From positions 3,472,001 through 3,536,000 of the forward strand of contig NC_009445.1 of the NCBI RefSeq assembly GCF_000026145.1: a DNA stretch of 64,000 bases. Reading direction: 5' to 3'. The DNA is from Bradyrhizobium sp. ORS 278. GTDB lineage: Bacteria > Pseudomonadota > Alphaproteobacteria > Rhizobiales > Xanthobacteraceae. The first letter of the stretch is position 1. The number at the start of each line of letters is the position of its first letter. A program made the position numbers and the translations under genes. Under the pieces are notes generated by a model. That model was given only the letters and a program-made list of their open reading frames with translations. It had not been told where the DNA came from and did no database searches. This document shows, piece after piece, positions 18,172 through 19,617 of the stretch.

Positions 18172-18201
18172 TTGACGGAGCGGCAGAGACGATGCGATAT
18201 G
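18172..18201 (+). promoter_or_regulatory. Possible promoter of the thr leader
   Basis: TTGACG at 18172-18177 and GATATG at 18196-18201, spacer 18. A transcript would start near 18208, at the leader ATG. That would make the leader peptide mRNA leaderless, as known for rhizobial trp attenuators, and would explain the missing ribosome site. Confidence 0.35.
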
Positions 18202-18208
18202 AGCACGT

Positions 18209-18286
18209 ATGCGCAATCTCCGCTCCATGTCTATGACCACCGCGACGACCAGCTCCGGCGGGTCGTCTCCTGGTCGCATGCGGTAG
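18209..18286 (+). CDS. Threonine-rich leader peptide of a transcription attenuator
   Basis: A 25-codon ORF, ATG 18209 to TAG 18286. The centre reads MTTATTSSGGSS: four Thr codons within five (ACC ACC GCG ACG ACC, 18236-18250). This is the hallmark of ribosome-mediated attenuation as in E. coli thrL. No Shine-Dalgarno is seen before the ATG, compatible with leaderless translation. It precedes a terminator and a threonyl-tRNA synthetase paralogue, so the amino acid sensed matches the enzyme regulated. Confidence 0.7.
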   Translation: MRNLRSMSMTTATTSSGGSSPGRMR

Positions 18287-18336
18287 CAGATCGCATTCCC
18301 AGAACAGGCCCCGCCGGCGACGGACGGGGCCTTTTC
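18244..18336 (+). promoter_or_regulatory. Thr attenuator: competing hairpins and terminator
   Basis: Arm 1 GACGACC (18244-18250, inside the Thr codons) pairs with arm 2 GGTCGTC (18261-18267). Overlapping arm 2, CCGGCGGG (18255-18262) is perfectly complementary to CCCGCCGG (18310-18317), forming an antiterminator. That segment is also the left arm of the terminator GGCCCCG/CGGGGCC (18307-18331) followed by TTTTCT. Ribosome stalling at Thr codons would cover arm 1, free arm 2 to pair with arm 3 and allow read-through to 18388. Predicted from complementarity, not measured. Confidence 0.7.
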
Positions 18337-18387
18337 TGTGTCTGCACAAACCCTCGTCCGCGCGGCTTCATGCAAAGGAAGCTAGTC

Positions 18388-19617
18388 ATGGACGATCTCG
18401 ATCACAGAAGCCTCGGACCCCGTCTCGATCTCTGGCACATCCAGGAGGATGCGCCGGGAATGGTGTTCTGGCATCCGCGCGGCCACGCGCTCTATCGCGT
18501 GCTCGAAAACTTTATCCGCGGCAAGATGCGCCGGCTCGGCTATGCCGAGGTCAGGACGCCGCAGCTGCTGCCGCTCGACTTGTGGATGCAAAGCGGGCAT
18601 TGGGAGAAGTTCGGCGCGCAGATGTTCGCCCTCGGCGAGGGCGAGCGCGCGATGGCGCTGAAGCCGATGTCGTGTCCCTGCCATGTCCAGATCTTCAACA
18701 GGAATTTGAGGTCGTGGCGCGAGCTGCCGCTGCGCTACGCCGAGTTCGGCAGCTGCCATCGCGACGAGCCGTCTGGCGCGCTGCACGGTCTGATGCGCAC
18801 GCGCGGCTTCGAGCAGGACGATGCGCATGTGTTCTGCCGCGCCGACGATGTCGCGGGCGAGGTCGCCCGCTTCGCCGCGCTGCTCTCGGAGGTCTATGCC
18901 GCGTTCGGCTTCGACGCGCCGGAGGTGTCGCTGTCGACGCGACCGCAACTGCGCGCCGGATCGGACGCGTCATGGGATTGGGCGGAGCAGGCTCTGGCCG
19001 AAGCCGCCCGCAGCTGTGGCCTGTCCTATGCGATCCAGCCCGGCGAGGGCGCGTTCTACGGACCGAAGCTGGAGTTTGCGCTGCGCGACCGGCTCGGCCG
19101 CTCCTGGCAGTGCGGCACGGTTCAGCTCGACAGCGTGCTTCCGGAACGTCTCGGCGCCTCCTATGTCGCCGCCCACGGTGCCCGGGCGACGCCGGTCCTG
19201 ATCCACCACGCGGTGCTCGGCTCGATCGGTCGCTTCATCGCGATGCTGCTCGAGCACCACGCCGGCGCGCTGCCGTTCTGGCTGTCGCCCGACCAGGTCG
19301 CGGTCGTGCCGATCACGAGGGATCAGCTGGACGATGCGTTGAAGCTCCGCGAACTTCTCTTCAGCGCCGAGCTGCGCGCCGTTCTATCAGCTGATGGCGA
19401 GACGCTGTCTCGGCGCATCGTCGCGGCGCATGCGGCGAGCATTCCCGTCGTTGCGGTGGTCGGGGCTCGTGAAGCAGCGCAGGGCACCGTGAGCCTGCGC
19501 GAGCGCGACGGGACGACCTCCGTGCTCACGTGGGATCGGGCGGTCAGCACGCTGCGCGAGCGGAATCGGCCGCCTCGCGGTAGCGTCGATCGCGCGTGCG
19601 GCCCCGATCTTGACTGA
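18388..19617 (+). CDS. Threonyl-tRNA synthetase paralogue lacking TGS and editing domains
   Basis: 409 residues, against ~640 for full-length ThrRS. Start ATG 18388 with AAGGAAG at six bases. The class II core is complete: GMVFWHPRGHALYRVLE, KPMSCPCHVQIF, the FGSCHRDEPSG motif 2 loop, RGFEQDDAHVFC, GAFYGPKLEF and the motif 3 region IHHAVLGSIGRF. The zinc ligands equivalent to E. coli Cys334, His385 and His511 are Cys96, His147 and His273. A C-terminal anticodon-binding domain (~300-400) follows. The N-terminal TGS and HxxxH/CxxxH editing domains are absent, so Ser-tRNA(Thr) could not be cleared in cis. The upstream attenuator predicts induction under threonine or Thr-tRNA shortage. It is presumably a second copy. 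Confidence 0.85.
   Translation: MDDLDHRSLGPRLDLWHIQEDAPGMVFWHPRGHALYRVLENFIRGKMRRLGYAEVRTPQLLPLDLWMQSGHWEKFGAQMFALGEGERAMALKPMSCPCHVQIFNRNLRSWRELPLRYAEFGSCHRDEPSGALHGLMRTRGFEQDDAHVFCRADDVAGEVARFAALLSEVYAAFGFDAPEVSLSTRPQLRAGSDASWDWAEQALAEAARSCGLSYAIQPGEGAFYGPKLEFALRDRLGRSWQCGTVQLDSVLPERLGASYVAAHGARATPVLIHHAVLGSIGRFIAMLLEHHAGALPFWLSPDQVAVVPITRDQLDDALKLRELLFSAELRAVLSADGETLSRRIVAAHAASIPVVAVVGAREAAQGTVSLRERDGTTSVLTWDRAVSTLRERNRPPRGSVDRACGPDLD

Follow-up and report, generated by a model that had tools for sequence, protein, structure and literature searches.

A predicted threonine attenuator upstream of a short threonyl-tRNA synthetase gene

We analysed a stretch of 64,000 nucleotides from the genome of Bradyrhizobium sp. 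ORS 278 (NC_009445.1, positions 3,472,001 to 3,536,000 of the forward strand), hereafter the window, whose own coordinates are used for every feature described in it. On its forward strand, which carries all of these features, a gene for a short paralogue of threonyl-tRNA synthetase (ThrRS; 18388..19617) is preceded by a complete threonine attenuator, the anatomy of which is exact at every coordinate and far above chance. The gene encodes 409 amino acids comprising a class II core and an anticodon-binding domain, with neither a TGS nor an editing domain. A ribosome-binding site, AAGGAA (18375..18380), lies seven bases upstream of its ATG at 18388. The frame is open back to 18172, through both leader and terminator, and an N-terminal extension was considered and rejected, as the open frame ahead of the ATG ranges between 1 and 121 codons over the 49 short-form loci defined below. 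Since such an extension is not conserved, 18388 is taken as the start of the synthetase.

The leader peptide open reading frame (ORF) spans 25 codons (MRNLRSMSMTTATTSSGGSSPGRMR, 18209..18286) and holds the sensor codons Thr-Thr-Ala-Thr-Thr (ACC ACC GCG ACG ACC, 18236..18250), as read directly from the sequence. It is short and rich in the regulated amino acid, as a leader ORF should be, and its translation is predicted. Segment 1 (18235..18250) forms the 5′ arm of the 1:2 hairpin, in which 18235-18239 pairs with 18271-18275 and the arm GACGACC at 18244-18250 is the perfect complement of 18261-18267. Segment 2 (CCGGCGGGTCGTC...TGGTC, 18255..18275), whose core is conserved, can partner either segment 1 or segment 3. 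Its first eight bases (CCGGCGGG, 18255-18262) are complementary at 8/8 positions to segment 3 (CCCGCCGG, 18310..18317), which is at once the antiterminator partner and part of the left arm of an intrinsic terminator (18307..18335, a hairpin at 18307-18331 followed by TTTT). Over 25 aligned sequences, 98.4% of the terminator cells are paired. The mutually exclusive 2:3 antiterminator and 3:4 terminator and the 1:2 pause hairpin are thereby all present in silico.

An earlier note on this DNA, made by a model from the letters and a list of ORFs, had described the leader with its threonine run, the pairing of 18244-18250 with 18261-18267, the complementarity between 18255-18262 and 18310-18317 and the terminator, and translation and direct comparison of the sequences confirmed each of these. 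The fold that it proposed, of 18180-18390, has a free energy of -91.7 kcal/mol against -75.3 +/- 4.9 kcal/mol for dinucleotide shuffles (z = -3.4; 0/200 shuffles as low), and the minimum free energy (MFE) structure includes both the 1:2 hairpin and the terminator. Moreover, a covariance model built from 25 leaders, the window's included, gives this site 122 bits, and the runner-up in the same genome 55 bits.

Downstream of the terminator lies a possible segment 5 (CCTCGTCCG, 18352..18360), complementary to the terminator right arm at 18321-18329. It is strongly conserved in Bradyrhizobium and may pair 4:5 in read-through RNA. The 4:5 complementarity exceeds the 95th percentile of shuffles in 31 of 43 different leaders, mostly from Bradyrhizobium, and is weak outside the genus. 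A double lock, in which a segment after the terminator, complementary to its right arm and to the Shine-Dalgarno site alike, would couple antitermination to translation, was also considered; predicted accessibility of that site rose by more than 0.1 in only 9/56 leaders and the idea was therefore dropped.

A synthetase core without TGS and editing domains

The earlier note had called the product an editing-domain-less ThrRS paralogue whose identity agrees with the sensor codon, and domain searches bore out both points. PF00587 (class II core) and PF03129 (anticodon-binding) are the only domains found in the 409-residue protein. TGS (PF02824) and tRNA_SAD (PF07973) were absent from it by domain search, and both occur in the normal 688-residue ThrRS, complete with TGS and editing domains, that the same genome (7.46 Mb, a single contig) also encodes. 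The short protein scores 445.6 bits against the thrS equivalog TIGR00418, above the cut-off of 383.65. Among the matches listed, its closest named relative is from Bradyrhizobium sp. STM 3809 (87% identity), and public names of the accessory synthetase are 'threonine--tRNA ligase' or, in a single record, a fragment. All 43 other carriers of the short gene that were tested also have a full-length ThrRS, the match starting at residue 149 in G169 and falling in two pieces in G235.

The short protein aligns without gaps to residues 243-614 of Escherichia coli ThrRS, so that the E. coli number, used hereafter, is the residue plus 238. Beyond what the passages of the papers cited below say, the roles of residues are those that we take them to have. 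The zinc ligands C334, H385 and H511 are kept in 50/50 short sequences, as are R363, R375, Q381, D383, Y462, G463, K465, Q479, Q484, S517 and R520; M332 is kept in 46/50 and T482 in 48/50. N333 is replaced by Ser in all 50 and R512 by His in 46. In the anticodon domain E600 and R609 are mostly kept (43/50 and 48/50 respectively). Clade-specific changes close to the zinc site and in the part that contacts the anticodon, at residues 95, 274 and 337-351 of the short protein (E. coli 333, 512 and 575-589) might alter the choice of tRNA or amino acid.

The earlier note had suggested tolerance to a ThrRS inhibitor. In the passages cited here, E. coli becomes borrelidin resistant through changes at H309 or L489 or through a raised ThrRS level alone (PMC4389257), and resistance of ObaO to obafluorin goes with Ser at the G463 position; ObaO also has Asn at A316, a position in contact with obafluorin (PMC11252418). 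These changes are almost absent from the short clade, with His at 309 and Gly at 463 in 50/50 sequences and Leu at 489 in 48/50 (Met in two). The window's short enzyme has Gln at A316, a site that is just as variable among full-length enzymes. With the resistance positions unchanged, the sequences offer, at the positions tested, no evidence of a resistant enzyme and the suggestion is not upheld in that form, although extra ThrRS dosage could still help against an inhibitor.

Distribution and inheritance of leader and gene

A protein scan of GTDB genomes confirmed at least 575 loci, of which 80 were kept. We defined the short form by an upstream open frame of fewer than 150 codons and a position not at a contig end, which gave 19 loci among the 80; L061 was dropped because its contig ends within the gene. 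The 19 come from Bradyrhizobium, Inquilinus, an Azospirillaceae metagenome-assembled genome, Acidocella, Burkholderia, Paraburkholderia, Citreicoccus, Myxococcus, Byssovorax and one uncultured bacterium. The earlier note had presented the arrangement as unusual for an alphaproteobacterium; it is not peculiar to one, being a recurrent module in Alphaproteobacteria, Betaproteobacteria and Myxococcota. Within Bradyrhizobium the gene is found in 38 of 265 genomes at E <= 1e-150, a threshold that may miss divergent copies. These 38 are the window, 29 homologues and 8 added loci. Five of the 38 and five of the 19 are probably identical strains.

A threonine leader and 3:4 hairpin accompany the gene at all 19 short-form loci and in all 38 Bradyrhizobium carriers. 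Homologous leaders with 2 (L108) to 10 threonine codons occur at 49/49 short-form loci. In 44 of these the hairpin is followed by a run of three or more T; L088, one of the others, has TTCTTC. An automatic rule (TTGAC plus at least three threonine codons) found 46 of the 49 leaders and misplaced that of L111; L009, L012, L108 and L111 were set by hand. In contrast to the 122 bits of the window, leader model R1 reached at best 16.4 bits, downstream of the gene, on 62 other ThrRS loci (60 whose upstream frames are long or cut by the contig end, the cut-off L061 and the genome's own full-length L002).

A maximum-likelihood tree was built from 50 different short sequences and 59 full-length cores. 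All short sequences fall on one side of a single branch (SH-like approximate likelihood ratio test, SH-aLRT, 100), with the Myxococcota deepest among them under midpoint rooting. The tree was made by a quick method with no bootstrap, and long rows flagged in it include L141, L134 and L023. Pairwise dN/dS lies between 0.10 and 0.22 (10 pairs). To either side of the gene, an all-against-all comparison of ORFs (at least 90 aa, up to 3 kb per side, 20 loci; no gene annotation or cluster search) found neighbours common to close relatives only, and an operon or gene cluster was rejected because distant lineages have none in common. In that comparison an antisense ORF displaced the synthetase in L009, L010, L013, L015 and L023, whose mutual matches are the synthetase itself. 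The sporadic distribution of a single gene with a constant leader suggests that the two moved as one unit. Carriage on plasmids was considered and rejected: 65 records of a plasmid collection match, all at less than 60% identity. The three best (Burkholderia arboris and two Caballeronia) are replicons of 2-3.5 Mb, and the other 37 of the 40 records listed show 45-52% identity, the level of housekeeping thrS.

Modelling of the switch

Stalling was modelled in 41 different leaders with the ribosome edge set 15 nt beyond the point where the stalled codon starts and the RNA folded only to the terminator loop. With the ribosome at the first threonine codon, 2:3 forms (6.7-9.0 expected pairs) in 40 of the 41; L014, the exception, has 0.5 pairs there and 6.3-6.5 at its next four threonine codons. 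At the last threonine codon before segment 2, that segment is covered or has at most 4 pairs. In the model of the window, a stall at either of the first two sensor codons gives the antiterminator and a stall at the last gives none.

Covariation was assessed in A2, an alignment of 25 diverse leaders, with helices defined from the window, a choice that biases the comparison with slid versions in their favour. The 2:3 helix is paired in 88.8% of cells versus 32-55% when slid, and L009 changes both of its sides (GGUGGG/CCCCACC, a core pair going from C-G to U-A). The 1:2 and terminator helices are paired in 86.4% of cells versus 29-46% when slid and 83.8% in shuffles (0/500 as high), and have 16 cells changed on both sides versus 7.8 in shuffles (again 0/500).

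Start of the leader transcript

A putative -35 box, TTGACG (18172..18177), begins 37 nt upstream of the leader ATG, and a putative -10 box, GATATG (18196..18201), placed by spacing only, follows after an 18-nt spacer. In 47/49 short-ThrRS loci the first base of TTGAC lies 35-39 nt ahead of the leader start (35 or 36 nt in 45 of them), the exceptions being L009 and L012; in the 8 further Bradyrhizobium loci the distance is 35-36 nt. Such spacing would have transcription begin at the ATG or right beside it in three major groups. The leader transcript is therefore probably leaderless, with a start expected at about 18208-18209, the leader ATG itself, to judge from promoter spacing alone.

Related attenuators upstream of other genes

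The main surprise is a predicted threonine attenuator of the same build upstream of a stand-alone hydrolase of isochorismatase fold, a protein without a known role in making or loading threonine. In the order of G582 (250 genomes), model R1 has six matches, two before a short ThrRS and four before such a hydrolase. In the class of G601 (369 genomes), model R2 has three, one before a hydrolase (G601 again), one before asd and one before neither. When the hydrolase protein was searched against 198 genomes from the family of G601, 12 of them had it (E <= 1e-50), at 13 places in all. Every one of the 13 has a threonine leader, with segment 2 of the GCGGG type and CCCGCC as segment 3; two of the leaders are identical. 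TTGAC stands 35-37 nt upstream in 10/13, and the T-runs are clear in most and weak in L150, L151, L152 and L162. Hydrolase loci with a homologous threonine attenuator are L127, L128, L132, L138, L150-L152 and L153-L165.

Three hydrolase proteins tested belong to PF00857 and fall under every NCBIfam cut-off. Names among the 120 relatives listed, of 798, are cysteine hydrolase, isochorismatase and nicotinamidase-related amidase, from Pseudomonas, Burkholderia and others, and from these names we infer that the family of G601 is Pseudomonas-like. One listed relative bears the name 'Streptothricin hydrolase', by annotation only.

In the genome of the window itself, a leader with threonine and lysine codons and a related terminator (L116, G000:C1:4182499-4182639; 26.5 bits) precedes asd, the gene for aspartate-semialdehyde dehydrogenase. 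Such Thr/Lys leaders before asd also occur, in Alphaproteobacteria, at L140, L167 and 12 of L169-L198. Two further sites in the same genome, at 4.718 and 4.719 Mb (L114 and L115, G000:C1:4718252-4718392 and 4719225-4719365), score 52-55 bits and have leaders that are not threonine-rich; the same skeleton with such leaders is found at L129-L131, L133, L135 and L136. Several of these non-threonine leader peptides end in AVGGVVR or similar, and the small ORFs behind the leaders of L114 and L130 contain a DUF1127 domain.

Model R2 matched 34 of 385 alphaproteobacterial genomes at E <= 1e-6. Among 30 R2 loci examined in this class, 13 adjoin a short ThrRS, 12 asd and 5 neither, and at L185 an attenuator-like leader with two threonine codons precedes what by eye is an exonuclease-like ORF. 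Weak R1 matches (E <= 0.01) occur in 93 of 398 genomes of the phylum; 30 loci from this weak search comprise 9 with a short ThrRS, 4 with the hydrolase, 1 with asd and 16 with neither. Most R1 matches under about 35 bits were set aside as chance G+C-rich hairpins.

Proposed role and alternative explanations

For the window, we are highly confident that the threonine codons would act through leader-peptide attenuation. That this ribosome-mediated attenuator controls an accessory, editing-less ThrRS, switched on as a back-up when the charging of Thr-tRNA fails, is likely on the present comparison, and as part of the same reading leader and gene are likely to be a co-inherited one-gene module set in unrelated surroundings across lineages. 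Taken by itself, a back-up role for the short enzyme seems reasonably probable. We infer stalling, read-through, enzyme activity, physiological role and shortage-induced expression from sequence and comparison.

With charged Thr-tRNA plentiful, the ribosome would pass the threonine codons, leaving segment 2 occupied or held by segment 1; pairing of 3 with 4 would then give the terminator, and transcription would stop after a short leader RNA. With Thr-tRNA short, the ribosome would stall on the first threonine codons and melt 1:2, and the freed segment 2 would pair with segment 3 before segment 4 is transcribed, so that polymerase could read into the synthetase gene. As the regulated gene encodes a synthetase and not an enzyme of threonine biosynthesis, the useful trigger would most likely be that charging fails because the housekeeping ThrRS is poisoned, starved of metal or insufficient, or else that threonine is low and is countered with more enzyme.

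Several observations weigh against this reading. The earlier note had held that homologous loci lacking the threonine cluster or the terminator would count against an attenuator. Put to this test, the attenuator was not refuted: the threonine codons and the hairpin are kept, with L108 down to two such codons. Four Myxococcota loci (L013, L018, L023 and L028), however, have no T-run and their conserved 3:4 hairpin runs on instead, which makes intrinsic termination there doubtful. Of the Bradyrhizobium genes, three among the 38 look broken or partial: the frame shifts near codon 50 in G174 and G053, and the match of G239 extends only to residue 311. The equivalents of N575, K577, R583 and R589 in the anticodon domain are mostly replaced in the short clade, so that the short enzyme may not use ordinary tRNA-Thr efficiently. 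Moreover, in 19 leaders folded as finished RNA, with the ribosome at any of three stall positions, the terminator persists in the MFE structure; antitermination would therefore have to be kinetic, as in classical attenuators. The covariation that the earlier note had proposed to look for is divided. Changes on both sides of the 1:2 and terminator helices exceed those of shuffles, as given above, yet only five of their pairs have such changes, a number that 76/500 shuffles reach. The 2:3 pairing is hardly above within-column shuffles (88.8% versus 88.2%, 37/500 as high), with both-side changes in 2/8 pairs, equalled by 12/500 shuffles. In addition, segment 2 pairs with the leader end in an RNAalifold consensus, where the terminator is present and the 1:2 hairpin is not. 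Covariation thus supports the predicted switch but does not carry the case, which conservation of the competing segments across phyla does. The missing T-run in Myxococcota, the broken copies and the thin covariation concern the relatives more than the window. The 3:4 hairpin of the four Myxococcota loci may terminate in another way or act otherwise.

What such a switch would be for admits several answers. Inducible self-protection against natural ThrRS inhibitors, in which the attenuator would raise the alarm when ThrRS is poisoned and the short enzyme would be a less-inhibited bypass or added dosage, is a tentative possibility. The gene is sporadic (38/265 Bradyrhizobium genomes), spans two phyla without neighbours common to distant lineages in the 20 loci and sits beside a full-length ThrRS in 43/43 genomes. 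A homologous threonine attenuator stands before the hydrolase (13/13 places), whose gene is not one of threonine biosynthesis, and more ThrRS alone can confer borrelidin resistance in E. coli, in the passage cited (PMC4389257). Against this, the named resistance positions show no consistent difference (H309 and G463 unchanged in 50/50, L489 in 48/50), and the Gln at A316 in the window is at a position equally variable in full-length enzymes. A plain response to threonine starvation, in which low threonine would induce extra ThrRS, perhaps of higher threonine affinity, is no less doubtful. Threonine attenuators normally report threonine supply and asd is preceded in this genome by a Thr/Lys leader built along related lines, yet extra enzyme does little when threonine itself is missing, and 227/265 Bradyrhizobium genomes have no such gene at E <= 1e-150.

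It is unlikely that the editing-less enzyme serves mistranslation tuned to starvation, serylating tRNA-Thr so as to keep ribosomes moving and to switch its own leader off. The lack of an editing domain and an induction expected exactly when Thr-tRNA is short would suit this, as would the Ser-tRNA-Thr made by ThrRS T2 of Anabaena in the passage cited (PMC4787780); the co-resident full-length ThrRS, however, has an editing domain that could clear Ser-tRNA-Thr in trans, and the zinc ligands are conserved. Decay of a thrS fragment with a relic leader recalls the name of the STM 3809 protein, 'putative threonine tRNA synthetase (fragment)', and the three broken or partial copies among 38. Barring an artefact in the selection data, it is largely refuted, and to our minds highly improbable, given a separate branch across two phyla, an invariant active site, dN/dS of 0.10-0.22 and a conserved leader.

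Back-up of failing Thr-tRNA charging thus remains our preferred reading. As to the natural cause of such failure (poison, zinc or starvation), the hydrolase tips the balance toward poisons and the unchanged resistance positions tip it away. More speculatively still than self-protection by the short enzyme, a family of leaderless threonine attenuators in Myxococcota, Alphaproteobacteria, Betaproteobacteria and Pseudomonas-like bacteria might be a transferable 'charging alarm' that drives stand-alone remedial genes against natural products poisoning ThrRS. The part of the hydrolase would be to destroy or modify the poison, that of the short ThrRS to bypass it. Since the signal would be the loss of Thr-tRNA itself, the alarm would be blind to inhibitor chemistry. 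If it does answer to ThrRS poisons, the leaders of short ThrRS and hydrolase genes would be natural biosensors for undiscovered ThrRS inhibitors. More generally, the preferred reading would readily explain why some soil bacteria retain an additional ThrRS that lacks editing, and it points to another gene, that of the unrelated hydrolase, under the same kind of control.

Comparison with known systems

Attenuation by a leader peptide is textbook knowledge for amino-acid operons, and here it would extend beyond them as a conserved regulator of an accessory synthetase. We found no paper on such a threonine attenuator in the open-access literature, as judged by titles and abstract openings, with subscription journals mostly outside this search. 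The enteric threonine operon attenuator (RF00506, Thr_leader) is alike in its leader with a threonine run, competing helices and intrinsic terminator, and the site in the window aligns with this model from end to end. However, the score is 23.0 bits (E 0.039 for 401 bases) versus a gathering score of 55, and the site is not a curated member. RF00506 has no match at E <= 0.001 in the whole genome of the window, and no Rfam family reaches its gathering score in 11 loci with this or related attenuators. The enteric leader contains isoleucine codons and regulates biosynthesis; the window's has none and would control a synthetase. In the pheST attenuator of E. coli, an aminoacyl-tRNA synthetase is subject to ribosome-mediated attenuation by its own amino acid. 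There the target is the housekeeping PheRS of a gammaproteobacterium, in contrast to the accessory short paralogue here.

Like the archaeal ThrRS of Aeropyrum pernix, in what is cited of it, the short enzyme has no cis-editing domain. The archaeal 3a31 ('Probable threonyl-tRNA synthetase 1', taken as the A. pernix protein) matches it at 2.4e-47 versus 1e-115 or better for the first-listed bacterial cores. Anabaena T2 is likewise a second ThrRS with reduced proofreading beside a normal one; in the passages cited it is stress-induced, is impaired in editing and makes Ser-tRNA-Thr, but its size is about 75 kDa, a degenerate editing domain is retained and control is by Zur and zinc (PMC4787780). 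ObaO, the obafluorin immunity ThrRS, is also an extra ThrRS beside the housekeeping enzyme. According to the parts of PMC10619133 and PMC11252418 used here, it lies inside the obafluorin cluster with Ser at G463 and Met at L489, in contrast to Gly in 50/50 and Leu in 48/50 short sequences. The trpL attenuator of Sinorhizobium meliloti is, like the present one, alphaproteobacterial, and its RNA is reported in the passage cited to begin with the ATG of the leader ORF (PMC7298713), as is predicted here from spacing only; it answers to tryptophan and regulates trpE(G), and the one in the window would answer to threonine. Set beside these systems, what appears to be new is the probably leaderless leader transcript together with the predicted homologous threonine attenuator before an isochorismatase-fold hydrolase.

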